The position numbers and the translations under genes were made by a program. From Vicia villosa (lineage: Eukaryota > Streptophyta > Magnoliopsida > Fabales > Fabaceae), in assembly GCF_029867415.1 (NCBI RefSeq), contig NC_081181.1:70838144-70902143 (forward strand): a stretch of DNA of 64,000 nucleotides, written 5' to 3'. Every line of letters begins with the position of its first letter. The first letter of the stretch is position 1. Positions 5,980-61,330 of the stretch are shown in pieces. The notes under the pieces were generated by a model, which searched no databases, had not been told where the DNA came from, and saw nothing but the letters and a program-made list of their open reading frames with translations.

Positions 5980-7160
5980 AATTGGTCTGGGCACCAAGAG
6001 AAGGTCGACATCTTTGGTGGATCTGGATATCACCACGAAATAGACGTCTTTGGCCGATCTGAATATCGGAAATAAGAATGTCTTCAACTGATCTGGGGAC
6101 ATCAGGACTGAGCAGACATGTCTTCTTCTGGCGAAAATAATTCGTCAGGTGGGTGGATATCCTCAACTGATCGGAACCATCAGGAATGTGTCCTTCTACT
6201 GATCTGGGGGCACCAGGAAGGAAATGGATATCCTCAACCGATCTGGGGGCATCGAGAATCTTAAAGAATGCTTTCAACTGATCTGGGGACATCAGGACTG
6301 AGCAAGCAAGTCTTCTTCCGACGAAAATAAATCGTCAGGTGGGTGGAAGTCCTCAACTGATCGGAAACATCAGGATTGTGCCTTCTACTGATCTGGGGGC
6401 ATCAGGAAGAAAATGGACCTCCTCAACCAATCTGGGGGCATCGGGAATCAAGATTGTCTTCAACTGATCTGGGGACATCAGGACTGAGCAGACATATCTT
6501 CTTCTAAACGAACTAAATCGTCAGGTAATGGATATTTTCGACTGATCTGAGGCATCAGAGGGCTTGCTCCTTCGGAAGATCTTAGAGATCCGGAGGCGGT
6601 TCTTTCAACTGAGCTGAATTTCAGGATAAGAACAAATATCCTCAACCGATCTGGGGACATCGGGAATAGGAGTGTCTTCAACTGACCTGGCGATATCAGG
6701 AATAATAGACAGTCCTCTTCTGATGAATTAAATCATCAGGAGATATCTCCGACTGATCTGAGGCATCAGTGGGCTAGCTCCTTAGGAAGATCTTGGGAGA
6801 TCCGGAGGCGATTCCTTCAACTAATCTGGATATTAGGATAGGAACAAATATCTCTTCCGAACTGTGTACGCCGGGAAAAGAATGCCTTTAAACTGATCTG
6901 GACATGATGCCAGAAAATAAGTAGGACAATCTTCATCTGAAAGACAAAGTCAATCAGGTAGACATCTCCATCTGATCTGATGATATCAGTGGCTTGCTCC
7001 TTCGAAAGATCGACAGAGATCCGGAGGCGGTTCCTTCAACTAATCTGAATTTGAATATTAGGATAGGAACAAATATCTCTTCCGAACTGTGTGCGCCGGG
7101 AATGGAATGTCCTCAATGGATGAATTGACAATCCTCTTCTGATCTCAATATCAGGATAAC
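5980..7160 (-). repeat. Element C 3' UTR tandem hairpin array
   Basis: Degenerate repeats built around phrases like 'caactgatctggggacatcagg'. Many units are inverted repeats with different stems: CTGAT/ATCAG (6088-6092/6101-6105), CCGAT/ATCGG (6646-6650/6659-6663), CTGATGA/TCATCAG (6720-6726/6733-6739), CTGGCGAA/TTCGTCAG with one G.U pair (6128-6135/6141-6148). Small ORFs here are by-products of the repeats. Confidence 0.85.
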
Positions 7161-9200
7161 GCCTGTAATGACTAGGCGAATATTGCTCTCTGGGGAAGCA
7201 TTTGAACCTGGATAAACTTTCCTGCAGAAAGAAACAAATATGATATGATTTATGCATGATGCATGCATGAATGTTTATGGAATAACATTCCCAAGAAGGC
7301 AGACGCTATACGCTTTTGAGAATGCTATGCAAATGATGCATGATTCGAACGTTGCTTAGGGATACAACGGATGAGCACTGAATTGTTGAAGAAGTCCTGG
7401 AGAGATTATGGAACTCTGCGGGGAGGGCAAGATGAGTGACCTAAAGTCACTATTGCGAGCTGGCAAAGATGGATTAGAAATCTGCTGGAGACGATCAAAT
7501 TTGGATGCGAGCTCTGGTTGGGGAATAAATCCTATTTGGGGATATGAACATCCCAATTAACTGCCTAGGGAAGACCCTGGCAACTTCGTAGAAGCAAATT
7601 CTCGACACACTGGGGATGAGGAGATAAGAGCAAGTCATGGAGATAACTCTGATGAGGAGTGACCAAGTTGCTTGTATATGACGCATTCCGCTGGGGAAAT
7701 CATTGATGAGAACAGATCCTGCTGAGGATTTAAACGACTCTCTGCTGAGGGAAGAAGCTCAGTGGGGAAGATGAATACTTTTGCATAATGATCCACTGAG
7801 GAGATGAGAGATCCGCTGGGGATAAGGAACTTAGCATAAGAACCTTTTGTCAAGATAACCCCACTGGGGAATAAGATAACTCTCCTGGGGATAACAGGTC
7901 AAACTGTTGGGGAGAGAAACAACCTACTGGGGAAATGAGGAATTCGGGCAAGGAACCTCATTAAGAGCTTGTTGGGGAATCAGATACCATTCATCATGAT
8001 TCAACTGGGGAGAAGATATTCCACCAAGGGATAAGGCTTTTGAAGCACGGAGATCTCGTTGACATGTGCTTTGCTGAGGGGATGAAAATCTTGGAACCAG
8101 AGAAAGCCTCGTCTGAATGTACTCAGCTGGGGAATGAGAATCTCTCACTCGGCTAGATCCATCGATATGCTGATATGATGCACTCGAAAGGATGCATCTG
8201 CGAGGTAAACTGATAAAAATGCCCCAGGATATAGCATGACGTCTTTAAGAGGTTCCTCACATGGCGGAGGATAGTGATGCTCACCCATAATGGGAAAATG
8301 CAAGAGCAAACAGATTGTCCGACCTCTTGGCTTTGAAACTTTCCATACAGGCAATAGATTCACGAGTTGACAAGCAAGTAGTGATTAGAACAACAAACAA
8401 GTATTGGTCGGAGCATCAAACAGGCATTGGTTTTCCAAGAGAATGCCACCAGGAAGTGGGCTTAAGGGGTCAAGTAAGTGTTGACTTCAAAGGGACCAAA
8501 CAGGCGTTGGCTTTCATAGTGTTCTGCATATTTGTATGATTGTAAGAATGCCAACAAGTATTGGACTTTCAGCTTCTAACTGCTGAGGATGAAGACCCTG
8601 ATGGTTCTCAAGTTCATAAGTTGTTTGGCTCACACTTGAACTTAACCTGATCACCTCCTGATGAGGGAAAATACCAATACACAGTGTCTCGCCCCAGCCT
8701 GTAGGGACTTTGAAGAAATTCGTCTCGTAAGGACTTCTTGATATTTGTGCTATCATAGCCTATTTGCCCCAGTATCCTGACTTTTGGTACCATGCCCTGA
8801 TTGACCAGTGTTGAAGGTAGCTTCAAATGCGCTTGGGTGAATGCCCCTGATTACTTAGCACTTTGAGAGATTCTTCGAATCTTGACCTGGTTGTCTCAGA
8901 TTGACTGGATTCTGGCTCGACAGAGTGTTCAACTGCTTTTGTGCCCCCTGAGGGTGATTAGACTTTGAAATATTGCTGCCTCTGCTCAACGGAGTTCTGA
9001 AGACAACTTGTCCTTCGGGAGGATAAAACTTTTCATCTGAAGTTCATGTTGGAAACTTTCTTGATGTCAAGCACTTGTTCATATGCAAAGAATGTTTATT
9101 ATGAGAAATATAATTCTAATGCAAAGAGTATGTTTGTCTTGAAGTTTAAAGAAACTTTTTAAAAGGATGTCGTAACATCGATATTTTTGTTAAAGAAAGA
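7161..9200 (-). other. Element C interior, non-coding with 'ctgggga' repeats
   Basis: From about 7370 to 8160 the phrase 'ctggggaa/ctggggat' recurs every 25-60 bases in very degenerate form; the rest is AT-rich with scattered similarity to D. All frames are short and unlike retroelement proteins. No gene seen. Confidence 0.6.
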
Positions 9201-9224
9201 TGGTGCGGTACCAACTCAAGCGTT

Positions 9225-10210
9225 TAGCAAAACTCCTAGGAGTCAGCTTACCATATTCTCATGTATAGCTTGCTTTCGAATTAACCCATGCTTCAGTTAG
9301 GACTTTTCAGGGTTGTAACGTGGTCAGGTTCACGGTTTAAAAAAAAAGATTTTTAGGCTCAAATTATTTAGTGCCCACCCCCTTCGTGATGTTCTCCAAT
9401 CCTAAGTTCAGTTAACTTGACACGAGAATTCATCTTTCAAGAAGAGTTTGAGATGATTGAGGAGTCAAAGAGGTCTTCTGGATATGGCAATCACTTTACC
9501 TTTCATTTTGGTGTCTGATCACACGACTTTGTTCTTTGTCGAGGATTCTTATTTTGTAATCCTTTTTTTTCGCTTTTGCTTTGCTTTTTTTTGTCTCCCT
9601 AACTTTTGCCTGGACAAATTCTTTTGAATTTCGAGTTGGATGTCCAGCGGGATGTCCTAACTTTTGCCTAAGTCACATGTTTTCAACTTGCTGACTTAGC
9701 GGGCTTTTCTTCTTTTTTTTTTCTTTTTTTTTTCTTTTTGATTCATTCTTTTCTTTTGAACAAGTCGTGTGATCCTGAATCTCGGATTTGCTGGAAGTGC
9801 ATAGTGACTGCCTGAGTCATTGATTGATGAAGAATTACCATTGTGGTATCGTCATTTTTTGACCTCTTGATGTGAGGGATAAACCACAGCGGTTTTGATG
9901 TTGGTCTCGACCTCCTGATGTGAGGGATAATCGTTGTGGATTTGACTTTCCTCAATCTTCTGAAGGATAGCCATTGTTGTATCCTTAAATATGTGCTCCT
10001 GATGAATTCTGAATGCTTGATCAAGTTAACTGGACACTACCCTACCCCTGGGTTAAATGTGAGGGTTTTTTATTTTGAGAAAAGAAACTCCTACTTCGAA
10101 GGCTCAGAAGGGTTAACGAAGGTCCATCTCCCTTATATCTCCAGTGTTTGGGAATTTGAAACAATGCCTGTACATCATCAACAGGGTTCTACTCAAAAGC
10201 ATACCATTTG
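9225..10210 (-). other. Conserved non-coding module of element C
   Basis: Three sub-blocks also occur in D (20745-21625) and B (34400-35260, opposite strand). First is a block with 'gggttgtaacgtgg' and 'cttcgtgatgttctcca' (9225-9450). Then come paired hairpins CTGGACA/TGTCCAG (9610-9616/9641-9647) and CTAAGTCA/TGACTTAG (9668-9675/9692-9699). Last is a block with 'ctacccct', 'gggttaaatgtgagg' and 'ccttatatctccagtgt' (10030-10210). Order and relative orientation are the same in all three elements. No ORF is shared, which argues for a DNA- or RNA-level role. Confidence 0.75.
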
Positions 10211-12815
10211 AGGTTATTGGTATTATGTGCTCATCATCCTCCCTACAGAGTTATCATGCTTTATTAACAAGAGTTGGGTATCACAAAAAGCATATAAAAA
10301 CATATAAGAGCAAAAGCGAATGATTTTTTTCAAGACAAACATATTCAATGCATTATGATTATAGTTCACAAACAAACAAGTTTTAGATACAAACAGTATT
10401 GACAAAACAAGAAAGCTTAAACATGAGCATGCATGGTGATTCAGAATTGCCAATGTTGAGGAGATCTTCTCCGTATGGACTTATTGCTTCAGAAGATCCG
10501 CTGAGTCGAATGAGAACTTCAATTCTGGCCTTCAAGTGCGAATGTGATAGATTTTGAGTCAATCAGGTCTTAAACCTTTTCTTTGAATGGCTTACAATCT
10601 CCAATCAGATCACCAAGTGCCCCCAGAGTGGAAAGCACACCAACCAACAGCATACATTCCCGCATAACCTTTCAGATTACTTCCTGGAAGAAGATTTCGG
10701 CAAAGTCATACAGAAGTTGCAAGTGTCCAACTTTTAGGGATTTGAGTTGTGCCAGTGATGCACAAACTCAAGATATAAGGCGTCTTGCTTATCCCTCGGT
10801 CGGGAGCCCTAAATATAGCTGCTGAAATAGAAAACACCATCATGAATGGAGGAAAATTGTACTACTATCAGCGAGCAACAATAACCTCTTCCGTTTGGCC
10901 ATCAAAGTCATTACTTGGAACATACAATAGTTGTTGAGAAGGAAGCCTCTGGTAGTACCAATTGCAAGTGATTCTCATGAGTTACTTCCTCGAGGAAGAA
11001 CAAACATTCTACTTGCAGCAGATGAAATGGGATTAACCAGTAGAAACCAATATGAGTAAACTCAAACTTCCCTGCATCGAGCAAGTCCTGGACTCTTCGT
11101 ACTTCAACACCTTATAAAGCTTGACATCATGATCAGGTGCCCCTAGAATGGAAAACACCGAGTATTGTAATCGGAATCAGGAGAGCTATCTGTGGTGAGA
11201 AATATCCCAAATCACTGATCTTAACCAACTGAAATTTCAATAAGCATGAAAGCAACTGAACACCAGGCATGGGGATTACATCAACTTGCTTCTAACTCTT
11301 TCCGTCTCTGTTGACAAGAAAAGACTATTGACAAGGAAACTCCAAGATGAGGAAGCGACTCAGGATATGAAACAGAACCTTGAGAATGATAGGTGTGCCC
11401 TTGCGGATCACTCTTGATTACGGTCTGGCAGAAGATTCTGGTGAAGTCATACGGAATTTGTAATGCTTTAGGGATTCGAGCAATGCAAATGGTGCAATGC
11501 TCAAGATAGACAATGTCTTGCTTATCCCTCGTTCGGGAGCCCCAAGCAATTTCAAAGACTAGAATATCTTAACATCACAACCAGGTTCCTCAGAATAGAA
11601 CTCACACCAAGTGTCATCACCATCAAGCAAAGAAAATGTAGACATCCCCACAGTACAGAGCTAAACCAGTTGCAAATAAAGCAAGCTTGGAAGCAAGTGA
11701 GCATAAGACAAGTCTTCAAAAAGAACCTCAACTGAGCTTTCCTCTTGATCACCCCACAAAGTTATTTCATGACTAATCTTTGAGCAAACAATAAGAACAA
11801 GTCAAGTCTCTGAGTCTGGTGAGTACCAAGTCTGAATAAGAGATCCTCAACTCTGAACACCTGTTATGCATGAAATGTATGAGATGCATGATATAAATGC
11901 AATGCCATATTCATTCAATTTCCAAGGAATCCTCGTGTTTGATTTTTTAGAAAGCAAGAGATGGAAAAGCTCGACACGAGACTTAAAGACACGATTCCTT
12001 GGAAATGGAAGGAACACATATGCTAGTATGCTAGTTATTTTTTTGTACATCATTTTTTGGAAAGTAAATATGCAATGATGCAAAGTGGTGGGGCTTGTTG
12101 CCGCCCACCAGGCATTCTGGACTGCCGGTAACACACATAGTACAAAGCCAAAGGTTCGGCCCCAGATAGATATACCATACGGTACATAGAAGTCAACCCA
12201 CGGAACCAAAGCCCGTAGTCACTAACACACTGGAATAGAACACAGATCACCACTCGATCAAGAACCATAGTACCCCACGAACAGGAACAATAGTACACTC
12301 GAACGAGAACAGCGGTAACCCATGAACAGGAACAGTGGTAACCCACGAACAAGAACAGCGGTAACCCACAAACAAGAACCAAAGTCACCATCAATGTACC
12401 TGTTAAGCAATGATTGATTCCCGCCCCACTCACGGGTAAATCTAGGCCAAGGTAGGTCAAAAAGCCAACAGAGGATCGAATGTAGGCGTTATCATACGAT
12501 ATTGCCTCATTCCACCAAGCTCTGCCTGTGGATACGTGATCAGATCAATCAGGCATACGCCTTCTGTCCGTCACGGCCACTCTAGTCCTAGTTCCTATGG
12601 TATCACTCATAGCCTGGGTATTGGGCCTTTTACCTCTTGAAACACCCACCCAACAGACAGAGATCCAGCCAGTCCAGAATATGATGCAGAAAAGTAAAAG
12701 GGCACATAGAATGCAATGCAAACAGGTATATATGCAAAGCAGTAAAACACCCAAAGATAAACACACAAGCGCTAGGATCGACTCGCCGAGTCCGGACCCG
12801 CAATAGGTCGAGACG
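10211..12815 (-). other. Element C interior and leader, non-coding
   Basis: Contains degenerate duplicated segments; for example 'gcttatccctcggtcgggagccc' at about 10785 recurs as 'gcttatccctcgttcgggagcccc' near 11520, and a reverse-complement relative lies in B near 33960. Near 12265-12375 a 23-bp unit 'gaacaggaacagtggtaaccca' repeats about five times. The PBS-proximal part (about 12600-12660) shares 'cctgggtattgggccttttacctc' with the leaders of B and D. No gag or pol was recognised on either strand. Confidence 0.65.
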
Positions 12816-14403: not shown

Positions 14404-14407
14404 TGTC
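14403..14407. repeat. Target-site duplication of element D (left copy), holding B's first four bases
   Basis: GTGTC here and at 27197-27201. Its G is the last base of B's CAAAG duplication and TGTC is the start of B's 5' LTR, so D inserted across the C/B junction. Confidence 0.92.
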
Positions 14408-15102
14408 TGTCGCACGCTCGCGAAATGTGAACAGAGTCGCCACCAATATATTTATCCCAAAGAGGGAAAGGAATATCAGAAAACCTAGAATAAAGAAAGG
14501 ATAAGAAAAGGTCTTTCGACCAGAGATAGGGTACGGGAGTCGGTTACGCGAGGGGAAGGTGCTAGCACCCCTCACGCCCATCGTACTCGATGGTATCCAC
14601 CTATGTTTGCTCTATTCTAAGGGTGTATAAATCTAAAGCTTAATGCTAAGGGAATGCATGCAAATGAATGAAAAAGAAACACGGGGAAAATAAGGTTTAT
14701 AAATAATTGTGCTCGCTTAGGCCCCGCGACCTAATGCCTACGTATCCTTTTCAGGAATCAGAGCGCCGTAGTTCGGCTCTTTAGTTTTTGTTTGTTTTTG
14801 TGTTTTTTAGTTGAACAGTTACATTCGCACTCCGCTGCTCGACCTCTGGAGTCTTAAGCTGGGAATGGAGCGGAAATAACGTGTCCGATTAGGAGAAAGA
14901 ATGCCCTGAAGGCAAGAGAAAGAATGCCTCGGAGGCGAGAGAGATAAATTTGGTTTGTGTCTTTTAGATGTAATTCCATGATGAACAAAACCCAATACAA
15001 GGCTTCGCGTCACTTCATTACTTTGATTTAGGTCTGAGCCTTTATTAAGTATTTTAAGTGTTTTTGATTGAGTGTTTTTTAAGGGATTTTAATCTGCGAG
15101 TT

Positions 15103-15377
15103 GAATCACATAGAATGTATGATGTCAAAGAAACAGATTAGGGAATGAATCCCACTCATTTCTCTACATGGATAGAGAAACAGATTAGGGAATGAATCCC
15201 ACTCATTTCTCTAATAATCGAGAAACAGATTAGGGAATGAATCCCACTCATTTCTCTTTGTAGTGATCGAGAAACAGATTAGGGAATGGATCCCACTCAT
15301 TTCTCTCTCACTAAGTGTTCGAGAAACAGATTAGGGAATAAATCCCACTCGTTTCTCTCCCACTTTTAATGTGATTC
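15103..15377 (-). repeat. Five-unit hairpin array inside inverted repeats (D 3' LTR)
   Basis: Five copies of a roughly 37-bp unit 'gagaaacagattaggg...' ending 'catttctc'. Each can pair GAGAAA with TTTCTC and GGGA with TCCC. The array is enclosed by GAATCACAT (15103-15111) and ATGTGATTC (15369-15377), so it could close as one stem with five arms. The same design is in D's other LTR and in both LTRs of B. Confidence 0.88.
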
Positions 15378-17020
15378 GCCTCTTCCTTTGTTAAGTGTTT
15401 TAAAGTTGAAAAGGAAAAGAAGAAGAAAACTAGCCTAAAATGAATAACTAGCTTAATGTGATGGGAACCTCTAATTCCTAAAGTTGTCATGGTTTCTACC
15501 TAATGGTTAGGAGCAAAAAGCGACATGAGAATATAAGCATAAGCGGAGATACAAGTAAATAACGATACAAGAATTAGTGTAAAAATGAGTAAAAGAATGA
15601 CTTGAAATATGGTACAAAACATAGAAGCAAATGATGCAAAATATAGTACCAAAAGTGAATTAAAGGACTATTATTTTTATTGATTTTTATATGACAAAGA
15701 ACAAGAATTCTAATCAAGCAAAAGAAATAAAATACAAGCCTAAACTAATATTTTTTAGTGATTATTTTTATGTGTCAAAAAATGTATTAAGGGTCTAAAA
15801 ACTAATAGGAGATTGGTATGATTTTTATTGCCTAAAAGAAGTTAAAAATCTAAGTAAAATCTAAATTGTTAATTTAACAAAATATGAACAGGGGGTTCAA
15901 AATGAATTATAGGGCGTGATTAGGAACTGGGCGCAGGCCCAAAGGACAGGCCCAGAGGGGGCGTTTTTGTTTGAGTTTTCAGGTTACCAAAAAAGATGTT
16001 ATGGGCTCAGAGGGGGTGCAGAATTCGCATGGCTCCCATGTATTGTTCTAATTGATCCACTATCAAATGTTTATTCAGATTTTAATTAAAAATAAAACAA
16101 ATTAATTAAATGAATAGTAATAAAAAGGGAAATTACGTTTGCAATGTGACGATTCATATTCAACTCCTACTCAACGTTCATTCTCCCTCCCTCGTTTCGA
16201 ACGGCGCCGGAAATCGCTCCGCCGCGCCGGAGGCGGCGGAGCTCGACTAAGTTCAGAATTAAAACACGCGCCCTCATCTATTTCACCTCCTCTCTTCGTT
16301 TTCGACCTCCATTCCTCTAGAAACTCACTCCGTCTTCCTAAATCTGAACAAATAGCAAACCCTAGATCTAAAGAGAAATCAAATTAAACGCTCATGGTTA
16401 CGAATCGTGAAGCTAGATCGTGGGGGAAGGAAACACGAGGTCTCAAGCTTCACAGTGGTATCAAGAATGCCGAAAAGGATGAAGATTTAGGGCTTGGTGA
16501 AACTTACCTACCGGAGAATGGTCCGGCGCCTCTTCGACGTGCGGGAGCGAGAAAACTAGAGATATCCTTAAGGACTCAGGTAATATTATGCATCCGTTAT
16601 TCCTCAGTTTTGCGTTTTCCTTCTTCTTCTTCTTCCTTTTCTGAATCTGTGAACTATGCTGAAATCTTGTTGCCTATTGTTATTGTTTCTGAGAGATTAT
16701 AGGAGACTCGGAGATGGAGGTTAAAAGATGAACTGAGAGGTTGAGATGGATTTCAGTGATGGAGTTTAGCTCTACTCCATTGAAGTTCAATGAGAACCTT
16801 CAATGGAGTTTTAGGTGGTGAGCGTGTAGTGGTTAGGGTGAGTGAGATGAATTGAGATGAGAGAGTAGAGTTAAATGTGAAGGAGAAGATGAGAGTGAAG
16901 GTTCTGAATTTTTGTGAATGATGGAGGATGCCGAGAGTGAAGATTGAAGAATGTGGAGACTGAAAATGGTGGAGTGTGGATGAAAAATGGAGAATGAATC
17001 GAGAGATGGTTGAGACTTGA

Positions 17021-23019: not shown

Positions 23020-23021
23020 GC

Positions 23022-27196: not shown

Positions 27197-27197
27197 G

Positions 27198-31265: not shown

Positions 31266-31267
31266 GC

Positions 31268-50243: not shown

Positions 50244-51271
50244 ATTAATCATAAAATACCCCGTTGAAACGTGCGACCGTATGACTTCTCCAAGCTTTGG
50301 GTTTCCTGTATTCGAGGCAGAGGAAGAAGAAGACGAAGAAATATCAAAGGAAATTTCACGATTACTTCAACAAAAGGAAGAGGCCATTCAGCCATACAAT
50401 GAGCCTCTAGAGATCATTAACCTTGGTTCCGATGGAAACAGAAAAGAGGTTAAGATTGGAGCTTCGCTCAGTTCAGAGATCAGAGAGAGTTTGATACAAC
50501 TGCTCAAAGAATTCTCAGATGTCTTCGCTTGGTCTTATCAAGATATGCCAGGGTTGGATACCAGTATAAGTGGAGCATCACTTGCCATTAAAAGCATAAT
50601 GCCCTCCGGTCAAGCAAAAATTGAGAAGAACTCATCCGGAAATGGCTATGAAAATCAAAGAGGAAGTTCAAAAGCAAATCAACGCAGGTTTCCTCGTCAC
50701 TTCAGAATACCCTAAGTGGTTAGCTAACATTGTTCCCGTTCCTAAGAAAGACGAAAAAGTTCGCATGTGCGTCGACTACAGAGATTTGAACAAAGCTAGC
50801 CCTAAGGATGACTTTCCTTTACCACATATTGATATGTTGGTGGACAGTACAGCAAAATCCAAAGTTTTCTCATTCATGGACGGATTTTCAGGATACAACC
50901 AAATCAAAGTGGCACCTGAAGACATGGAGAAAACAGCTTTCATCACCCCCTGGGGCACGTTCGGCTATCGTGTCATGCCTTTTGGACTAAAGAACGCAGG
51001 GGCAACTTATCAAAGAGCCATGACTACGCTTTTCCACGACATGATGCATAAAGAAGTGGAAGTCTATGTGGACGACATGATTGCCAAATCAGAAAATGAA
51101 GAAGATCACATACAAAATCTGACAAAGTTATTTCAACGCTTACGGAAGTTTCAGCTTCGCCTGAACCCCAACAAGTGCACCTTTGGTGTCTACTCATGAA
51201 AACTCTTTGGTTTCATTGTCAGCAAACGAGGAATTGAAGTAGATCCAGACAAAGTCAAGGCAATTCAAGAA
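50244..51271 (+). pseudogene. pol (RT): Reverse transcriptase of element A, broken
   Basis: An acidic N-terminal linker (EAEEEEDEE) leads to the RT segment VFAWSYQDMPGLD. At about 50569 an extra A shifts the frame, and a TAA follows in the new frame (50597-50599). From about 50600 the RT proper runs: YRDLNKASPKDDFPLPHID, catalytic Asp in SFMDGFSGYNQ, GTFGYRVMPFGLKNAGAT, and YVDD at 51065-51076. A TGA interrupts at 51197-51199 after FGVYS. The palm aspartates are all present. The enzyme would copy element RNA into DNA from the tRNA primer, but this copy cannot yield a full product. Confidence 0.87.
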
Positions 51272-51904
51272 ATGCCTTCACCCAGAAACGAGGAATTGAA
51301 TTACATCTCGAGATTTATATATCTCATGACTGCAACTTGTGCTCCAATTTTCAAACTTCTACGGAAAAATCAGAGTTGCGTCTGGACAGACGATTTTCAG
51401 AAAGCGTTCGACAGCATTAAAGAATATCTGCTCGAACCACCCATTTTGTCTCCTCCAGTGGAAGGAAGACCTTTGATAATGTACTTAACCGTCTTAGAAG
51501 ATTCCATGGGTTGTGTCCTTGGACAGCAAGACGAGACGAGAAGAAAAGAGCATGCCATCTACTACCTAAGCAAGAAATTCACTGACTGTGAATCCCGCTA
51601 CTCCATGCTCGAGAAGACGTGTTGTGCTTTGGCCTGGGCTGCCAAGCGTCTCCGCCAGTACATGATTTGACATACTACTTGTTTGATCTCTCATATGGAT
51701 CCAATCTAGTACATCTTTGAGAAGCCTGCTTTAACTGGGAGAATTGCCCGTTGGCAGATGTTGTTATCAGAATATGACATTGAGTATCACGCACAGAAAG
51801 CCGTGAAAGGAAGCATTCTAGCTGAGCACCTGGCTCACCATCCACTCAATGGTCATGAATCAACCAGTTTCGACTTTCCGGACGAGGACGTCATGTACCT
51901 CAAG
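51272..51904 (+). pseudogene. pol (RNH): RT connection and first RNase H of element A, broken
   Basis: Same frame as the RT. Shows TATCAPIFKLLRKN, then Ty3-type RNase H landmarks: LTVLEDSMGCVLGQ, YYLSKKFTDCESRYSMLEK and TGRIARWQMLLSEYDIEY. Compared with the family, a short in-frame piece is missing near 51290 (the 'GFLGRL' area). Stops are TGA 51668-51670 and TAG 51707-51709. A one-base loss near 51908-51912 then moves coding to the next frame. Confidence 0.8.
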
Positions 51905-52473
51905 ATGAAGATTACGACGAGCCACTACCAGACGAAGGACCTGAGATAGGATCCCAATGGGGCTTAATCTTTGACGGAGCTGTCAACACTTATGGACGAG
52001 GAATTGGGGCAATCATTGTTACACCTCAAGGTACCCATATTCCATTTACTGCCAGATTAACTTTCAAGTGCACAAACAATGAGGCCGAATATGAAGCTTG
52101 CATCATGGGTCTCGAAGAAGCCGTGGATCTAAGAATCAAACACTTGGATGTATACGGAGATTCTGCTTTGGTCATCAATCAAATCAAAGGAGAATGGGAA
52201 ACACGCCAACCAGGGCTAATTCCTTACAAAGACTACGCGAGAAGATTGTTACCATTCTTCGACAGGGTAGATTTTCATCACATTCCTCGTGAAGAAAATA
52301 ACTTGGCTGATGCATTAGCCCCACTCTCTTCCATGATTAGGATAAATCATTGGAATGACATTCCTCGAATTGATGTTATGCGCCTGGATAGGCCCGCTCA
52401 TGTTTTCACAGTAGAAGCAATCATCGACGACAAACCATGGTATCACGACATCAAGAACTTTCTTCAAAAGTAA
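51905..52473 (+). pseudogene. pol (aRNH): Second (archaeal-type) RNase H of element A
   Basis: A second RNase H between the Ty3 RNase H and integrase, known in the Tat lineage. Acidic catalytic residues are visible: Asp in IFDGAVN (51973), Glu in NNEAEYEA (about 52081), Asp in YGDSALV (52159), and Asp in LADALAP (52309). The domain itself is uninterrupted, but it is cut off from the upstream frame and stopped by TAA 52471-52473, probably a CAA-to-TAA change since the integrase continues in the same frame. Confidence 0.85.
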
Positions 52474-52488: not shown

Positions 52489-53685
52489 GTGTCAAAGAAA
52501 GATAGAAAGACTTTGAGAAAGTTAGCTTGTAGATTCTTCCTGAATGAAGATGTTCTGTACAAGAGAAACTTCGACATGGTTCTGCTCAGATGCGTTGACA
52601 GAAAAGAAGCAGAAGTACTCATGAGAGAAATACATGAAGGTTCCTTTGGTACTCACACCAATGGACATACCATGACAAGGAAAATACTGAGAGCAGGATA
52701 TTATTGGCTGACGATGGAGTCAGATTGCTACCAGTACGCAAAGAGGTGTCACAAATGTCAGATCTACGCCGATAGAATTCATGTGCCACCATCTCTTCTC
52801 AACATACTCTCTTCCCCTTGGCCTTTCTCCATGTGGGGAATCGACATGATTGGAATGATCGAGCCAAAAGCGTCCAACGGACATCGCTTCATCTTGGTAG
52901 CTATAGACTATTTTACCAAATGGGTTGAAGCAGCTTCATATGCAAACGTTACAAGACAAGTTGTCGTCAGGTTTATCAAGAATCACATCATCTGTCGCTA
53001 CGGTATTCCTAGCAAGATAATCACTGACAATGGGTCAAATTTAAATAACAAAATGATGAAGGAGCTTTGCGAAGAATTCAAGATTGAACATCACAACTCA
53101 TCTCCTTACAGACCAAAGATGAATGGAGCTGTAGAAGCAGCTAACAAAAACATCAAGAAAATCGTTCAGGAGATGGTCATCACTTACAAAGATTGGCATG
53201 AAATGCTCCCGTATGCTCTTCATGGTTACCGTACATCAGTACGTACTTCGACTGGAGCAACTCCTTTCTCCCTTGTATATGGCATGGAGGCAGTCCTACC
53301 CATAGAGGTTGAGATCCCATCAATGAGAGTCTTGATGGAGGCGAAATTAACAGAAGCCGAGTGGTGTCAAAGAAGATTCGATAAATTGAACTTGATCGAA
53401 GAAAAGCGCATGAAAGCTTTATGCCACGGTCAGCTATATCAACAAAGAATGAAGAAAGCTTTCGACAAAAAGGTTCGGCCTTGCACCATCAAAGAAGGCG
53501 ACCTTGTACTCAAAAAGATTCAATCTTTTCTCACAGATTCGAGAGGGAAATGGACTCCCAATTATGACGGCCCCTACGTGGTCAAGAGAGCTTTCTCAGG
53601 AGGAGCCTTAATACTCACGACTATGGATGGAGAAGAATTCACCCGTCCTGTGAACGTCGACGCAGTCAAGAAATACTTCGCCTAA
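52489..53685 (+). pseudogene. pol (INT): Integrase of element A (398-codon open frame, intact DDE)
   Basis: C-terminal part of pol that inserts element DNA into the genome. The HHCC zinc-binding region includes HEGSFGTHTNGH and CHKCQIYAD. The core has D119 (GIDMIG), D180 (TDNGSN) and E216 (GAVEAANKN), spacing D-x60-D-x35-E as usual. C-terminal region: KEGDLVLKKIQSFLTDSRGKW then GPYVVKRAFSGGALILTTMDG. The frame ends at TAA 53683-53685. There is no break within it, but it has no start of its own and depends on the damaged upstream polyprotein; the first codon here is GTG after the TAA at 52471. Confidence 0.88.
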
Positions 53686-53704
53686 ATAATTAAAAGAACA
53701 GCTC

Positions 53705-53852
53705 GCTAAGTTGAAAACTCGCAAAGAACGACTTAGGCAAAAAAGAGCTTCTCGGTGAATCGAAAACCCGAAAGGGCGATTCAGGCAAAAGTTAGAGACA
53801 TAAAAAAAAAATCAATCCCGGTAGACTTGAAACCCGAGAGGGGTAGTTTACG
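53705..53852 (+). other. Three tandem hairpin modules just after integrase (A)
   Basis: Three modules, each ending near 'ggcaaaa(g)ttag' or similar, with different paired stems: CTAAGT/ACTTAG (53706-53711/53731-53736); GAATCG/CGATTC plus CCC/GGG (53757-53762/53777-53782); GTAGACT/AGTTTAC with one G.U pair plus CCC/GGG (53821-53827/53845-53851). The first matches the CTAAGTCA hairpin of B, C and D. Confidence 0.83.
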
Positions 53853-54639
53853 CAAAAGTTAGGGATATATGGCAAGTAACTGTGTTCAGGACAAACTTGA
53901 TCATTCAAAAATCCATAGCGGAGTATTCATCAGTAGTAGGTCATCTTCTACGAAGCACGAATACAGCGCAACTCGGAGTGGAAGGGAAAGATAACGGTCG
54001 TCACGTTTCATCGTAGCCCTTTTCCCGAAAAATTACCAATTTCCAACTTCGTAAATGCTCCATGGAATCAAGCATTTGGCTGATTACCATTCCATATATG
54101 ATAATTTGAGCCTTGTGCCTTTCTTTGCAATCGAGTCTTTTTCAGTTTCTTGAAATGCATTTTAAGTTTAAACAGTCATTTTTTTTGAAACGAAATGTTT
54201 TCATAAAATAAAAATGAATTTACTTGCAAAAAAAATAAAGGTGAAATTTCTTTCTGAGGTTTACAAACAATAGGAAGAATGCAAACAGTTGCTCTAAGAA
54301 CGGTTGAGACTCCGGGAACCAAGATTTCCCCATGAGGTCGCTTTGCGAACATCTCCCGATGACGGATCTTCACTTCAATTCATGTTACTCACTTCGGACA
54401 GCGGACAACTGATAACCAGGTATTCCCAACAGAGTTCGAACTACAAGAAGAAGACATCTTCTGATCAACAAAATTCAAGTCGTATCATAGGACTTTACAT
54501 CCGCGACAATTCTATTCACATTCACTTTGCATTTCATAATCATCGTAATATTCATGCATTTTGTCTCACACCATATTTGCATAATGAGCATAGTCTAGCG
54601 AGGTTTTGATCGTGTTAATACCCAAATTACTTGGACATA
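53853..54639 (+). other. Element A 3' UTR, no gene
   Basis: AT-rich non-coding sequence between hairpins and repeat arrays. Nothing further recognised. Confidence 0.55.
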
Positions 54640-55510
54640 TACTCGAGATTCCCCTGCGAAGTTGTGAAAGGGTTTTTCTTCTTCATGAAGAAGGTTCATA
54701 CACCCAAATTCCCCAAGCAAGTCAACAAATGGTAGTCTCCCTCAAAGAGATAGTTTGTTCACTTTTGGAGTTCCTCAGCCAAGATTCTCCCGCAGAGTGA
54801 CACTCGACAGTCTTCTTCAGATGAGATAGTCTATTTCGCATTTTGGAATTCCCCACAGGGTCGATGAGCGTTTCTCTTCTCCAAGAAGTGTGGATTCCCC
54901 GACATAATTAACAAGTGGTAGTTTTTCCTCCTGGAAAACAGTTTGGTATTTCCCCAGCAGGGTCAAGAGATGCCACTTTTCGTCAAAGAAAATAATTTGG
55001 AATCTCCCCGGCAGATCGACAAATGATCCCCAGCGGAGTCAGTGAATAGCAGTCTCTTTCGGCAAAAGACAGTTCACTCACTTTTTCGAACAAAAATAAC
55101 GAATGGCAGCCTTCTTCATGAAGACAGTTCGTTTTGCTTAAAGATTCCTCAACAAAGTCAGCAAATGGCAGTCTCTTTCGGCAGAAGACAGTTTGCTCAC
55201 TTTCTTTCACGGCGGGGTCAACAAATGGCAGTCTCTCCCAGTAGAAGACAGTTTGTTCCCCTAGCAATTGGCAAATGGCAGTCTTTCCCCAAGGAAAGAC
55301 AGTTTGTCTGTTAAACATTCAAGAGATCGACAAATGGCAGTTTCTTTAAACAGTTTGTCTGTTTCTGAGATGTTTCATCCCCTTTAGAGTCGACAAATGG
55401 CGGTTCTCCTCTTAGGAAAATAGTTTGTTGGTTCCCCGGCACAAGTCGATGAATGTTGGTTTTCACCCAGAAAACAGTTCGTCTGCTTTCAAGCAAAGTC
55501 ATTAGCCCCT
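54640..55510 (+). repeat. Element A 3' UTR variable-stem hairpin array
   Basis: About 12-15 degenerate units of 50-65 bp ('gtcgacaaatggcagt...acagtttgtctg', 'ccccagcagggtc'). Most contain an inverted repeat at the same place but with another stem: CTTCTTCATGAAGAAG (54678-54693), GTCTTTCC/GGAAAGAC (55281-55288/55293-55300), GTTTTC/GAAAAC (55459-55464/55470-55475). Confidence 0.85.
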
Positions 55511-55570
55511 CAAAAGATCATGAGGCCATATGACATTCTTTCAAGACGTCAAGTCAAAAGGGAAGATGGT

Positions 55571-55950
55571 GAAGTTTCTTTATTACCATCAAATGGCGTC
55601 TCATCTCCAAGTGCTGATGAGAAGTTTGATGAGGAAACAAACCTTTGAAGTTTCTTTATTACCATCAAATGGCGTCTCATCTCCGAGTGCTGATGAGAAG
55701 TTTGATGAGGAAACAAACCTTTGAAGTTTCTTTATTACCATCAAATGGCGTCTCATCTCCGAGTGCTGATGAGAAGTTTGATGAGGAAACAAACCTTTGA
55801 AGTTTCTTTATTACCATTAAATGGCGTCTCATCTCCAAGTGCTGATGAGAAGTTTGATGAGGAAACAAACCTTTGAAGTTTCTTTATTACCATCAAATGG
55901 CGTCTCATCTCCGAGTGCTGATGAGAAGTTTGATGAGGAAACAAATCTTT
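55571..55950 (+). repeat. 76-bp minisatellite, five copies (A 3' UTR)
   Basis: Units start at 55571, 55647, 55723, 55799 and 55875 ('gaagtttctttattacc...'), nearly identical. Each can pair 'atggcgtctcatct' only weakly with its surroundings, unlike the neighbouring array. Repeating ORFs on both strands result from the period. Confidence 0.95.
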
Positions 55951-56310
55951 GGAGAATTTCTCTTTATCTGAGATATTGTCCAAAATCACAACTTAGACCA
56001 GTTTCGAGATGCAGACATCCGAAACAAGGGGAGGTTGCTTGCCTTTTTCTAAGTGTCAACACTTAGTTAAAGAAGATGGATTGCGCATCCTACATTGCCA
56101 TCCATTCATCAGAATCCACATGACGTATTCCTACAGGAGTTTGTCTCCTCATCCCCCGCTAAGTGCGACAACGGGATCAAGTCATGAAAAGATTTTATCA
56201 ATTACAACATCTCAGGAGCGCCCAAAATTCGGGCATTCTTTGATATTTAAGTCTCTTTCACGCAGGAGAGATCGAGATATCAATCTCTCTCCCTCTGGAT
56301 AAAAGAAACT

Positions 56311-56324: not shown

Positions 56325-57877
56325 TGTCATACCCTAATTTTTGACCCCCCTGAGATGACATATCTTCAGGATTTTCATCAGGTCAAAGCAAGTACCCAGA
56401 GCAGTCACTTCTTCATCTGGCATTTAATCAAGGATGTTCAAAGACAAGAAAACTCAGGCAAAGGATCAATCAATAGAAGGATTGGTATCTAACACAATCA
56501 TAGGACTCAAAAGCTTCACTTTTATATTCACCTATGATTGATTAGACACTCAGTCATCTGAGTACAAGTTTACTCAAGTCACCAGACTAGGTTTTTGAGC
56601 CTATCAAGGACTGAAATCAGGGATCACCTTTGGGAAACCCTAAAAAGCTCCAGGACATCTATTAAAGACTTCAATCTTCATCAAATGATCCATACAATAA
56701 AATCCACTGGACATCACACCTCAATTCAAGATCCACAGTCACCAATTTCATCTGGTCGACAATTAGGGTTTTTAACCTAATTCATCTGGATAGTTGACTT
56801 TTAATCAGGGCATGGATCCAAAACTCAATACATGATTCAAGAACTTCTACTACCTCAACATAACCCATTTACATCACTCATTTGAGGAGAAGATCTTGAT
56901 TCCACACAAAAGTCCAAAATCTCACTTTATCTAGAAAAAGTGAACTGTATAGGATCACCTTTGACTTTTGGGATTTTTGGTCAAACCATGACTTTTAAAG
57001 ATCAATATCATCAATATATGGTTATTAAAGTCATTTGACCAAAGAAATTCATGAAGAATCATCAAGGAGCAAAAAGTCGGGAATTAGGGTTTTTGAGGGC
57101 ATTGTGGGAACTCAAAATTTCACCTACACAACTCAAAAAACTTCCAACATGAAAGTTGTAGATCTTGCAAAATAAAACAACATCTTACATAGGAACTTTT
57201 TTCAAAAGATCAACCATTTAAGAGATTTGGAATTTTCAAGCTTTAGGTTATAAAAACTTAGAAATTTTTCTAAGTGTTTTAACCTAGTTTTCATCCAACT
57301 TTGGGCTCATTTTTCATAAATTTCCCAAATGATTCTGAAGAAACCCCAAACTAATGATTTGAAGTAGATGTTTAGGGCTTTCCAAATTGTGCTCAACCTT
57401 CTCCAAATTCATTTTGAGCTAGGAGTTATGCTTGTTCAAAGTTGGCCTCATAAGGTGAAATTATAGGTCATGTACAAATTGGAACTTTGCAATTTTGTGC
57501 AAAAGCCTTCTCTAAATGATGCTACCCGACCTCTAATACATCTGCAAGCACACCATACATCCAATTTCATCATTGCATAAGGATTAGAGAAGATTCCCAA
57601 AAACAAAGACATGTGATTATGTAATGATTACATTTAGGAATTTATGGCAAATTGATGAATCACCAAAGGAATCTCTTCCCAGCCAATTGGAGCTCATTTC
57701 TGTCTCAGATTTGTCCCCTAAGATCAAGCAAAATCGAGGGCTGGGGGATTGATCAAATGGAATCAAAATTCTCATCATTGCATAAGAGATATTTGCAAAC
57801 TTCCTTCATGGCCAAGAAAACCAAATCAACCTCACTAAGCAAGCACACTCCTCTGCAACTATACTGAACCATTTGCC

Positions 57878-57885
57878 TATAAATA
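57878..57885 (+). promoter_or_regulatory. TATA box of element A LTR
   Basis: CCTATAAATAGGAG is a near-ideal plant TATA box. Start of transcription expected 25-35 bp on, near 57910. Confidence 0.72.
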
Positions 57886-58824
57886 GGAGAGCATACCTCA
57901 GTAGAAAATCACACCAAAGCAACAGAATTCTTGCTTTCTCTTTTCTTTCTTCATACTTAGTTTTTTCAAAGGTCCTTTGGCAAGAAGACTCGGATTCTTC
58001 AAACCAAAGCTCTCTCTTTGAAAGTAAGTATTCAAACACATTGAGGGAGGCATTTAGAGGTGATCCAAACCTCTGGAACACTTCTGGGCGTGGAGAATCA
58101 TCATCTTCACCTCTCATTTGGAGCACTTGCAGTTGGAGGACCACAGAACAATTCAGGAGGTTCCAAGCAAGGTTAAGCATCCAGGCACACTCCTTAGAGT
58201 ATAGTGAAGCTACTCAGATGGTCGCAGCTCATCTGTAACTGCAGATTCATCATCCTCCATGTTCACTTGAAGCTCAAATCGAAGGAGTCGAGTAGAGCAA
58301 TTCAGAAGGTTTGAGGTCACAACAAGCATCCAGTTAGCATCACTGAGTCCCAAGGAAGCTTTTAGGATCATTCATACAGACCCAGGTGCTCTCCAACATC
58401 CTCACGATCTTCATTTTCAGAGGTAAGTTTCTCAACTCCACCTCTTTAATTCATGTACCTTTTTGGATAAAACTCAACACCATTCTATTCAGCATCATAA
58501 GAGGATTAAAAACCCTCTATCATCAGTCATTTATGCTTCAGTATAGCCATTTAATTTAATTTTCAAATTTTAGGGTTCTTCACGTATTTTAGATAATTCA
58601 GTAGATGTAGTTAATATAAATTCATATTAGTTACATATCTAGAATCGTGAGTGAATTTAGAGCAAGTTTGGTCTTTACATCTTTGCGAATGGTTGAGAGT
58701 TGAGAGAGTTCAGAAATTCAAAATTTGAGAGCTTGAGGAAGAAGATGACAATGGTGGTGGCGCGCAAATTTCAAATCCCAGGGCAGAGTTTATTTTATAT
58801 TTAATGATATGCATTTCATAAACG

Positions 58825-59090
58825 AATGAATAACTTGCCCTAGTGGCCACACATGCGCTCTTAGTCTCCTCATGCCCAAGGTCTGGGGTTCGAATCCCCC
58901 TCGCCTCAGACCTTTTGATTTTATTTTCTTTTTTGCTTCTATACACTTGAACACTATATGAATTGCATTGAAACCAGCTTACTATCACCACACGCGCGTT
59001 GGCTCAGTAGTGTTTGTTTTGGGTGTGTGACCTAGAGGGCGTGTGTTCAAACCTTGGAGGAGACAAAACCATTTTTTTTACCACTAATTC
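58825..59090 (+). repeat. Two tRNA-like (SINE-head-like) modules in A's LTR
   Basis: The second module has a perfect pol III A box, TGGCTCAGTAG (59000-59010), a B box GTTCAAACC (59045-59053) and a T8 run after it (about 59072). The first has a perfect B box GTTCGAATC (58888-58896) and a weak A region near 58845. Antisense translation of the first gives the 'EARGIRTPDLGHEE' peptide, a known sort of spurious repeat-derived ORF. Confidence 0.6.
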
Positions 59091-59639
59091 CCTTCATTTT
59101 TTCTCACAACTTCACACAATTAATTCACCTATCAAATTAAATCATTTTCACTTCATTTATCACACACTTGTTATTTAATATACCTATTTTATGAATAATC
59201 AAAAAAATCACAAAAAAAATATTATTCATTTCATATATTTTAATTAGGTTTAAAATAGTATGTTTTAAGTGTTTTCTTAAATACTTTAAATATATATATT
59301 TTCATTTTGTTTTAACCTAATTATCTTGTAAATAAATTTATTATAAAACCCTAATTATTTAGGTCTTATTTAGGTATAGATTTTATCTTTACCTTAACTA
59401 AGTTGACTTTTGTCAATTTGCAAAACTGTTTTCAATCTCCGATTAAACAGACGATTAAGGTTTTCAAACAACAAAACCTTATATCATTTCAATCATTTTC
59501 AACTGTTTCTCATAAACAGTAAATCATTTTCAAGTGGGCCTCTAATAGAGTGTAAGTCCCAACACCTTTTTCTTTTCTTAGTTTGTTTTCAAAAACTGTA
59601 TTTACAAAATCTTCTTTCTGTTTTCAAAATATTCTTCTG

Positions 59640-60780
59640 GTATTTGAAGGGCATTATTCCCGGTGAAACTCTTCAGATACCTGTGTGACCTATGTCCATC
59701 TTCACTTCTTCTGTTTTCAAAAAACCATTAACTGTTTATCATATATATTCAACTGTTATCCATCAACTGTTGGTGAGGCTTTGTACATACTTCTTCAAAG
59801 GCCTCCACTCCATCCAGGTTAGGCTTTACAAGCTTTCAATTTACAGTCTTTGTTTAAATTACTGTCAAATATAGAACTGTTTATATATTTGTTTAGAACT
59901 ACGTCTGAGTGTAAACCTTAGGACAGTTAAACTATATATATATATTATAGGAATATGACCTAGGATTGAGAATGTCTTCCCGGTGAAGGCTCTTTCCTAA
60001 TTAGAGATCTGTAGTTCAAACCCCCAAGATGAATTATTCCCGGTGAAACATCTTGGCAAAAACCTTAGAATCCAAAAAAATAGGACACATCCACCCAAAG
60101 AGGAATTATTCCCGGTGAAACCTCTTACCCATTTGCTTAGAGCCAAAATAAGTTCAAAACTACATAGCTTTCTCTTGTGCTATAACAAGGACCCTCGATG
60201 ACCCTCGATTAGCCTCCTCTTGGGCTTTGTACAAGGACCCACAGGCTTCTTAAAAGCATTTCCAGCTTCCTCTTGAGCTTGTATACAAGGACCCATCAGG
60301 TTTCTTATAAACATAGGAACAGGTCTTTAGTCACCTTTTAACCTACCCTGGTGAGTTTCTTCCAATTTAAACCAGACTTTAAACAAGCTAAGTTTGTCTC
60401 AATTTTACATTGAGTACACCTTTTGGAATGAGAGACATGGACAGTCTCTGTCACCCTTATCTTCATCAATTTTCCTTAGCAGAATCTAGGATCCATGTTT
60501 GCTTATCCTCAGCAAGAGTCAGCCTTCATCTTGGGCTTTAAACAAGAAGTCTCATTAGATAATCTTTCTGCCATCATTCAAAAACCCCTGGAAAGGGTTA
60601 GCCTCCAAAATCACTCCTTCAATTCCAAAGATTCATTCTATTAAGAGATAATTCCCCAAAAGAGTCAAAACCCCTGGAAAGGGTAAGCCTCCAAAAAACA
60701 TGATTAAAATTCAGTCTTTTAATAGTCAATTTCTCCAGCTGAGTCAAAATCCCTGGAAAGGGTTAGCTTCCAAAAAAAAA
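59640..60780 (+). repeat. Short dispersed hairpin repeats in A's LTR: 'TTCCCGGTGAA' and 'CCCTGGAAAGGG' families
   Basis: 'Attcccggtgaaac' occurs near 59654, 59977 (variant), 60034 and 60109; it pairs TTC with GAA. 'Cccctggaaagggt' plus 'agcctccaaaa' occurs near 60586, 60670 and 60750; it pairs CCCT with AGGG. 'Gtacaaggaccca' phrases lie between. Confidence 0.75.
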
Positions 60781-60837
60781 CATAAAAATAAATTATTTTG
60801 TTAAAACCTCTAGCAGAATAAAACTCCCCCAGTGAGT

Positions 60838-61330
60838 CTTTCATTTTTTAGCCACAACCTTGGGCTTTGTACAAGGCAGATAAACCATATTTCCCCGTGT
60901 CAAAGATTCCTAATCTCTAGGATCTTTTCCCCATAGAGTCTTCCACACTCAGTTTCTTTAAAAGTCCGCCACAACCTTGGGCTTTGTACAAGGCAGAAAA
61001 TAATATTCCCCCTAGCTAGAGTAGCCACAACCTTGGGCTTCATACAAGGCACAAATTAATAACCATCCTCAGTAAGAGTCAGCCACAACCTTGGGCTTTG
61101 TACAAGGCACACAAAATAGAGTCATCCATAGTCTTAAAAAAAACTCAGTTATCCTCAGCAGTTAGCCACAACCTTGGGCTTCATACAAGGCACACAAATA
61201 GAGTCTCCCTAAGTAGAGTCAGCCACAATTCTGGGCTTTGTACAGAACACCAAATAAAATCCATCAAATAAAAACTCTCCAACTAGAGTCAGCCTCAATT
61301 CTGGGCTTTGTACAAAACACAAAAACTCCT
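60838..61330 (+). repeat. 'Ccacaaccttgggctttgtacaaggc' repeat array in A's LTR
   Basis: About seven units. Loop 'ggctttgta' is kept while the stem changes: CCTTG/CAAGG (60858-60862/60872-60876) against TTCTG/CAGAA (61229-61233/61243-61247). Related single units lie further up near 60210 and 60280. Confidence 0.87.

Follow-up and report, generated by a model that had tools for sequence, protein, structure and literature searches.

A shared hairpin domain downstream of pol and tandem hairpin arrays in four nested Ogre-type retrotransposons of Vicia villosa

The stretch of Vicia villosa DNA analysed here, positions 70,838,144 to 70,902,143 of contig NC_081181.1 (64,000 nucleotides; hereafter the window), contains four nested long terminal repeat (LTR) retrotransposons, A > C > B > D, as judged from self-comparison and from the element ends. 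In each of these Ogre-type elements a tandem array lies a little upstream of the polypurine tract (PPT) and the 3'LTR, and between the coding part and this array sits a folded RNA domain of approximately 220–260 nt, formed by two or three tandem hairpins within a longer-range stem. The hairpin architecture is conserved in all four elements and its paired positions covary; the domain is very probably a folded RNA that has been maintained by selection.

The domain downstream of pol

The domain came to light when the surroundings of the motif GGCAAAAGTTAGGGA were inspected in the four elements. Its hairpins share a consensus, i.e., an outer stem of 4–5 bp, a G-C and one more pair, an inner stem of 5–7 bp, an apical loop that varies, one bulged base, and on one side only an A-rich bulge, AAAAGUUA, of which the variants AAAAAA, AAAAAUAA and AAAAAUUA also occur. 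The outer stems include AGCTC/GAGCT, GCCC/GGGC, TCTC/GAGA and ATCCC/GGGAT, and the inner stems TAAGT/ACTTA, TAAGTCA/TGACTTA, TGAATCG/CGATTCA, TAGACT/AGTTTA and TGGAC/GTCCA; in the outer stem of A2 (hairpins are numbered within each element, Table 1) standard pairs are found at three of the five positions, p2–p4, plus p5. The arms of the closing stem of D are homologous to those of C (GATCACACGACTT/AAGTCGTGTGATC) and partly changed, and the candidate closing stem of A, whose 5' arm reaches into the integrase frame, is the weakest of the four. Self-comparison also revealed that a block of approximately 1 kb around the domain is 69–75% identical among B, C and D, and that the adjoining arrays are unlike.

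When the nine hairpins were aligned with MAFFT, 93.4% of 106 cells were paired versus 79.0% in shuffled alignments, a value reached by none of 500 shuffles, and double-sided changes were present in 7 of the 12 base pairs. The covariation score was 0.523 versus 0.244 in the shuffles (0/500), a shift of the register by 1–3 columns left 2.5–46.4% of the cells paired, and RNAalifold recovered the same stems unprompted. The hairpins were also compared with a tree-based null, computed with our own script and not with R-scape, in which substitutions occur independently on a neighbour-joining tree; in the variant with a fully paired root, paired cells and double-change pairs are scored. The fraction of paired cells (0.929 versus 0.727, p=0.0008) and the number of double-change pairs (6 versus 1.5, p=0.0004) both exceeded this null; covariation in the domain is therefore above the phylogenetic background, as expected of a selected RNA structure.

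The relationship of the hairpins of A with the others was examined using a covariance model trained only on the six hairpins of B, C and D, and searched across the whole window. The seven matches listed were four of the training hairpins, A3 (39.4 bits, E 4.6e-8), A1 (34.1 bits, E 1.3e-6) and one at chance level (13.6 bits, E 0.43); C1 and B1 overlap better matches by one base and hence were not listed separately. The same alignment without base pairs gave 13.4–13.8 bits (E ~0.005) at the three hairpin places of A. The far higher scores of A1 and A3 with structure than with sequence only reveal that base pairing, and not sequence alone, ties the hairpins of A to those of B, C and D.

Folding energies obtained with RNAfold were lower than those of shuffled sequences on the sense strand of all four domains, with z values of -6.61 and -6.22 for B (0/200 shuffles as stable; antisense -4.25), -6.06 for the whole domain of C (antisense -5.33), -3.13 for positions 21,018–21,320 of D (antisense -1.50) and -2.45 for A (antisense -0.17).

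Hairpin arrays of the 3' untranslated regions and LTRs

The hypervariable tandem repeats in the 3' untranslated regions (UTRs) of Tat/Ogre elements were reportedly recognised as a source of satellites by Macas et al. in 2009. Such arrays, and their growth into satellites, are well established (PMC7004042, PMC11963269, PMC3305785), and those described here agree with them in place (gag-pol to 3'LTR), in the kind of element and in having family-specific units. Word counts of PMC7004042 gave no occurrence of hairpin, secondary structure or palindrom-, and those of PMC11963269 and PMC3305785 none of hairpin or secondary structure. Relative to the known arrays, the covariation of the arms and the domain downstream of pol are new; searches of the open-licence PMC literature returned no article that deals with covarying structure in Ogre.

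The initial annotation of this DNA had described tandem hairpin arrays before the PPT in the four elements; these are real, and each one is located near the PPT and 3'LTR. The array ending at 61,330, which it took for 3'UTR, lies instead inside the 3'LTR of A. It also proposed a common design, which was not confirmed: the units of A are two-stem hairpins with a 4x1 internal loop, GGCA/A, between an outer and an inner stem, and each unit of B, C and D has just one short stem. In A, stems such as ACAAA/TTTGT, GTGAA/TTCAC, ACGAA/TTCGT and GCAAA/TTTGC alternate around a constant internal loop, which in the RNAalifold model is closed by a U.G pair. A neighbouring 76-bp array of A folds alike (z -2.24), with both stems replaced around the 4x1 internal loop GGCG/A. 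As annotated, the array sequences have nothing in common, except for the loops of C and D: the stems of C vary about a CCCAG-like loop, and the hairpins of both elements, with unrelated stems, share the loop core CCCAG(A), so these two arrays may descend from one.

Because the array units were picked by eye with structure in mind, a scan of all registers on MAFFT alignments was run as a counterweight, which retained helices with three or more double-change cells and a paired fraction of 80% or higher. In A, 12 units were counted, two of them degenerate, and a degenerate unit near 54,880 and a truncated one near 55,010 were omitted; in B, 12 were counted and a degenerate one near 37,056 was omitted. 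For C, 27 units entered the arm-swap test, two of them with longer arms that were trimmed to 5 nt and are hence out of register; 26 entered the tree null, where the GGTGAT/ATCCACC unit was omitted and the 6-nt arm GTTTAG was entered minus a T for register; and 23 entered the all-register scan; the CCGG and CGGATCT hairpin types of this array were left uncounted. The 12 units of the LTR array of A were read by eye and not placed by coordinates. The helices that passed were 6/623 in A, 3/181 in C, 1/253 in B and 0/175 in D, whose units were cut at TCAAC and are thereby selected for one arm; those listed, namely four of the six in A, the three in C and the one in B, lie in the expected stem register. 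Control tandem repeats gave 0/31 (5 units) and 0/496 (3 units), with little power.

The initial claim that both arms change together in A, B and C holds for A and C beyond shuffles and beyond the tree null, and weakly for B. In the 12 aligned units of A, 91.7% of 108 cells were paired versus 84.2% in shuffles (0/500 reach this value), with changes on both sides in four of nine pairs. When arms were swapped among distinct arm pairs, the observed combinations paired better than the permuted ones for the outer stem of A (41/45 versus 34.9, p=0.0002) and for C (67/75 versus 60.2, p=0.0005), with p=0.05 for the inner stem of A and p=0.10 for B. Against the tree null, paired cells and double-change pairs gave, respectively, p=0.0002 and 0.039 in A, 0.003 and 0.0008 in C, 0.011 and 0.0096 in the LTR array of A, 0.12 and 0.009 in B (i.e., only the double-change pairs of B exceed the background) and 0.015 and 0.14 in D, whose set contains a few chance matches of the search pattern.

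The omission of D from the covarying arrays was correct. Its array shows little variation other than deletion: among 42 loop-anchored flanks of 5+5 nt, 26 are the canonical TCAAC/GTTGA, seven are CTCAC/GTTGA, in which a deletion breaks the stem, and a single one (TCAAT/ATTGA) is clearly changed on both sides. Units with broken stems were amplified like the intact ones and the stems are mostly open in prediction, with a mean pairing probability of 0.16 over 21 stems; structure-keeping was consequently rejected for this array. The more general statement that structure and not sequence is kept is accepted for the arrays of A and C, applies weakly to that of B and fails for D.

Folding energy was rejected as a proof for the arrays, since 100-nt windows of all four resemble dinucleotide shuffles and none is clearly more stable; the mean sense z was -0.23 in A (n=17), -0.20 in B (n=7), -0.87 in C (n=24) and +0.10 in D (n=24). 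A pairing probability of at least 0.5 was reached by 8/12 outer and 6/12 inner stems of A, by 11 of the 14 stems tested in C and by one of the eight tested in B; the stems of B and D, of 4–5 bp, are predicted mostly open. Folded singly, three of five units of A have the two-stem form as the minimum free energy (MFE) structure and two do not.

Hairpins with a constant loop and replaced stems are also present in the LTR and leader of A and, together with the domain downstream of pol, constitute the best evidence for kept structure, which the initial annotation had overlooked. The sequence TTCCCGGTGAA occurs five times without mismatch in the window, four times in the 3'LTR and once in the leader, always within a hairpin, and the stems of these hairpins are unrelated (e.g., CCAAGATG/CATCTTGG, AAGAGG/CCTCTT and TATTTGAAG/CTTCAGATA); pairing of the flanks is poorer when they are exchanged among the copies (p=0.017; 2/120 permutations as good). 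Taken singly, these hairpins rank from 0.1% to only 14.6% against random places in the LTR. In the LTR array of A, CCTTG/CAAGG is swapped for TTCTG/CAGAA around GGCTTTGTA. A window-wide scan for seeds with a constant loop and replaced stems revealed no general excess (83/6793 and 92/6792 at p<0.01, with ~68 expected), and the CCCGGTGAA family alone stood out. The LTRs of D and B have tandem arrays of nested hairpins (GAGAAATGAGT GGGA ... TCCC ... TTTCTC), and no other array in the window folds as stably (sense z between -2.1 and -3.2).

Two explanations that dispense with selection on RNA were considered for these observations. One is that the arrays are ordinary hypervariable minisatellites in which, by chance, inverted repeats arose as founder effects and were spread by tandem duplication. 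This accords with the well-known arrays of Ogre 3'UTRs (PMC7004042, PMC3305785), with the ordinary folding energy of the arrays, with the outcome of the window-wide seed scan and with the covariation of B, which amounts to five distinct arm pairs; however, A, C and the LTR array have more double changes than the tree null predicts, the all-register scan picks out the expected registers, and the domain downstream of pol is no array repeat, so that we consider it the least probable of the explanations weighed here. The other, also improbable in our view, is that template switching or palindrome correction during reverse transcription or replication matches the arms at the DNA level. Correction should remove bulges, yet in the domain neither the one-sided AAAAGUUA nor the extra G varies, the 4x1 internal loop of the A arrays outlasts full replacement of the stems, and the arms of the closing stem are ~200 nt apart. 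In its favour, such errors do expand tandem arrays, the inverted repeat of the D array was amplified whether paired or not, and the excess of G.U over A.C mismatches is not significant. This excess goes in the direction expected under RNA selection and is not decisive (15 versus 7 on the sense strand in a first count, p=0.13).

Possible roles of the domain

The domain is kept in copies that have only gag or no genes, next to arrays that are unlike in sequence, which points to a cis signal on the genomic RNA. The LTR identities of B (99.2%), C (98.1–98.3% in two long pieces and 97.1% in a 239-bp piece) and D (99.93%), estimated by self-comparison as was that of A (98.6% over 797 bp), are high, and indicate that these elements moved recently with the domain and, in the case of C and D, without genes. 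The domain thus probably acts in cis in the handling of the genomic RNA, of whatever kind. Packaging by Gag explains most directly why it is kept in gene-poor copies and is the best reading in this respect; that the domain is a packaging signal in particular is possible, and the explanation as a whole that we tentatively favour is that the genomic RNA is recognised in cis at this site, most likely by Gag and for packaging. The roles that the initial annotation named for the arrays (packaging, dimerisation, RNA stability and support for strand transfer) are all possible. In the case of Ty3, localisation and packaging of the RNA depend on both UTRs and POL (PMC4974528, PMC11381356).

According to this proposal, the non-coding RNA of these elements would be kept folded, on the sense strand, with the stems paired in the cell, and the constant A-rich bulge would be read by a protein, for which Gag, acting in packaging, is the likeliest candidate. 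With no task beyond presenting the bulge, the stems could drift through paired changes. For C and D at least, Gag would have to be supplied in trans. The downstream arrays would represent lineage-specific multiplications of weaker, generally similar hairpins, those of A having a constant internal loop of their own. A broader version, in which the domain is an RNA mobilisation tag that lets the proteins of autonomous partners also pick up the RNA of gene-less relatives and, jointly, the downstream arrays evolve by structure without sequence, seems to us somewhat unlikely.

Several observations weigh against the proposal. This analysis found no link between the domain and Gag, and minimal Ty3 elements retain chiefly their 5' portion together with some of the 3'UTR (PMC4974528, PMC11381356), by which a packaging signal downstream of pol would be in an unusual place. 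The nine hairpins amount to approximately four stem classes in four elements of one window, i.e., to few independent events; their seven double-change pairs were reached in 24/500 shuffles and their count of pair types in 500/500, and for the A array the corresponding figures are 41/500 and 403/500. A2 was missed in the whole-window search with the covariance model (it scores 25.0 bits if its own 63-base stretch is searched alone with filters off), and its outer stem has a probability of 0.00–0.14. When the domain of C is folded whole, its MFE structure contains the closing stem and most of the inner stem of C1, and lacks C2; without the closing stem, the antisense strand of C (z -3.40) folds better than the sense strand (z -2.01). 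The stability of the arrays does not exceed that of shuffles, and sense G.U over A.C, 21 versus 12 in six sets, gives a one-sided p=0.08.

The rival that bears on the same facts is that the domain serves the export or the stability of RNA: it would carry the unspliced genomic RNA from the nucleus or protect it, a job like that of the constitutive transport element (CTE) of simian retroviruses or of the mouse RNA transport element (RTE) and musD transport element (MTE). These are also structured cis RNAs with several stems located between pol and the 3'LTR; the likeness is one of form and place, with no sequence match found. The location of our domain, its multi-hairpin form and its repeated constant bulges fit such a role; multi-stem transport elements are described in PMC11379458, IAP and musD rely on elements of this kind (PMC12786077), and the intron in the Ogre coding part leads to spliced and unspliced RNA (PMC6317226). 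In contrast, C and D keep the domain with no detectable coding part and hence no intron-bearing gag-pol RNA to export, and a scan of the whole window at the gathering thresholds of Rfam 15 gave no match to a known RNA family. We regard export or stability as rather unlikely, and our guess would be to rank packaging first and this alternative second and nearly as good.

The nearest plant cases are the element for nuclear expression (ENE) of transposable-element RNAs (PMC12501189) and the structures of large retrotransposon derivatives (LARD) and terminal-repeat retrotransposons in miniature (TRIM; PMC7215508). The ENE of Evade, likewise a structured RNA, occupies the spacer that separates the coding part from the 3'LTR, and raises RNA stability and mobility; it takes up the poly(A) tail in U-rich internal loops, whereas the bulge found here is A-rich (PMC12501189). 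The domain was consequently rejected as an ENE: in place of a U-rich internal loop flanked by G-C pairs, it has bulges such as AAAAGUUA or AAAAAUUA. The difference from LARD and TRIM is that here one structured domain spans the gag-pol element A and the gag-only or gene-less B, C and D. According to a 2025 review of host factors of plant LTR elements, RNA export of these elements has never been directly studied in plants; secondary structure and hairpins are not mentioned in the excerpts of this review (PMC12786077).

Ogre elements form very large shares of some legume genomes, e.g., 45% of that of Lathyrus sativus (PMC7004042), and little is known of how the RNA of plant LTR retrotransposons is chosen for export or packaging. 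If the proposal is true, a compact domain shared by gene-less copies would provide a handle on trans-mobilisation, and satellite families derived from such arrays would begin as RNA-structure repeats; the arrays would link the birth of satellite DNA in Ogre 3'UTRs with RNA structure.

Identity of the elements and other features

By the criteria examined, element A belongs to the Ogre lineage of Tat Ty3/gypsy elements. Its reverse transcriptase (RT) and RNase H (RH) are followed by an additional RNase H (aRH) and then by the integrase (INT), which is the order that characterises Ogre (PMC6317226), and an extra open reading frame (ORF) coding for a DUF7745 protein precedes gag, as does ORF1 in GmOgre (PMC3305785). 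From the reading frames only, the coding frame of A is broken at 49,918–50,600, where Ogre is expected to have an intron between the protease and RT. A tblastn search (1e-4) with nine proteins of A and B as queries detected gag as the sole coding match in B, no gag, pol or ORF1 in C and D, and no RT or INT in B, C or D. These three were tentatively grouped with Ogre by their 4-kb LTRs, the primer-binding site (PBS) TGGCGACTCTGCTGGGGA, the PPT and the domain downstream of pol; the identical PBS stands beside an LTR in all four elements. Pattern searches of viral contigs and genome contigs for further Ogre copies gave no matches, and no relative was confirmed in scans for related loci that used the integrase, part of the RT and ORF1.

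Table 1. Location of the elements, hairpins, arrays and other features in the window
Feature	Position	Strand	Remarks
Element A	5'LTR tail 1–796; 3'LTR 56,325 to ~62,354	+	self-comparison, element ends
Element C	1,436–43,798	-	within leader of A; self-comparison, element ends
Element B	27,198–41,380	+	within 5'LTR of C; self-comparison, element ends
Element D	14,407–27,197	-	at start of B; self-comparison, element ends
A domain	53,645–53,892	+	candidate closing stem GTCCTG (53,645–53,650)/CAGGAC (53,887–53,892)
B domain	34,739–34,962	+	13-bp closing stem GATCACACGACTT/AAGTCGTGTGATC, 34,739–34,751 with 34,950–34,962
C domain	9,517–9,774	-	13-bp closing stem as in B, 9,762–9,774 with 9,517–9,529
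D domain	21,031–21,280	-	closing stem ACAACTTGTTCCC/GGGACAAGTTGT
Block of ~1 kb around domain	34,128–35,434 (+); 9,042–10,486 (-); 20,738–21,701 (-)		
Hairpin A1	53,700–53,749	+	outer AGCTC/GAGCT, inner TAAGT/ACTTA; 34.1 bits, model without A
Hairpin A2	53,749–53,799	+	outer TTCTC/GAGAC, inner TGAATCG/CGATTCA
Hairpin A3	53,815–53,866	+	outer ATCCC/GGGAT, inner TAGACT/AGTTTA; 39.4 bits, model without A
Hairpin B1	34,776–34,828	+	post-pol type
Hairpin B2	34,828–34,885	+	post-pol type
Hairpin C1	9,653–9,705	-	post-pol type
Hairpin C2	9,595–9,653	-	post-pol type; absent from whole-domain MFE of C
Hairpin D1	21,141–21,204	-	post-pol type
Hairpin D2	21,077–21,139	-	post-pol type
A 3'UTR array	54,725–55,482	+	12 units counted
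A 76-bp array	55,570–55,951	+	5 near-identical copies
B 3'UTR array	36,649–37,019	+	12 units; CCAG/CTGG, CCAA/TTGG, TCAG/CTGA
C 3'UTR array	5,982–7,154	-	CTGAT/ATCAG, CCGAT/ATCGG, CTAAT/ATTAG, TTGGT/ACCAA and others
D 3'UTR array	~18,740–19,910	-	TCAACCCAGAGTTGA; little covariation, weakly folded
Array in A 3'LTR	60,207–61,420	+	GGGCTTTGTA core between CCTTG/CAAGG, TCTTG/CAAGA and TTCTG/CAGAA stems
Four hairpins in A 3'LTR	59,640–60,127	+	loop TTCCCGGTGAA at 59,657, 59,977, 60,037 and 60,109
Fifth TTCCCGGTGAA hairpin	1,082		leader of A
Nested-hairpin LTR arrays of D and B	15,129–15,358; 23,743–23,972; 30,361–30,623; 40,476–40,738		
A ORF1 (DUF7745 protein)	43,975–45,411	+	upstream of gag
A gag	from 45,701	+	
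A RT (RVT_1)	50,600–51,196	+	domain match
A RNase H (RT_RNaseH)	51,200–51,667	+	domain match
A second RNase H (RVT_3/RNase_H)	51,859–52,470	+	domain match
A integrase	52,489–53,684	+	
TTCCCCAGCAGAGTC repeats	53,686–56,300 (+); 56,330–61,558 (+); 5,740–9,500 (-)		
PBS-like TGGCGACTCTGTT	31,231; 41,346; 23,056 (-); 14,442 (-); 12,867 (-); 1,468 (-)		

The target duplications CCTTC, CAAAG and GTGTC were read by eye from the element ends; the last one, of 5 bp, belongs to D, which is inserted a few bases into the start of the 5'LTR of B (27,180–27,215).

Repeats of the 15-mer TTCCCCAGCAGAGTC, which is complementary to the PBS of the elements themselves, are confined to the sense strand. When four or fewer mismatches were allowed, eight copies were counted in the 3'UTR of A (shuffle mean 0.51, maximum 3), seven in its LTR (0.82, maximum 4) and 11 in the 3'UTR of C (0.94, maximum 4), with none on the antisense strand; there is no enrichment in B (2) or D (0), and the pattern was picked post hoc, once noticed. 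An ARAGORN scan returned no tRNA genes. The sequence of the 15-mer suggests a resemblance to the 3' end of the primer tRNA, which we take to be tRNA-Arg, and by binding to the PBS it could circularise the RNA or act as a competitor of the tRNA. Finally, a PBS-like TGGCGACTCTGTT lies ~35 bp upstream of the true PBS within the 3' end of the LTR in B, C and D, and is possibly an old PBS that was absorbed into the LTR.

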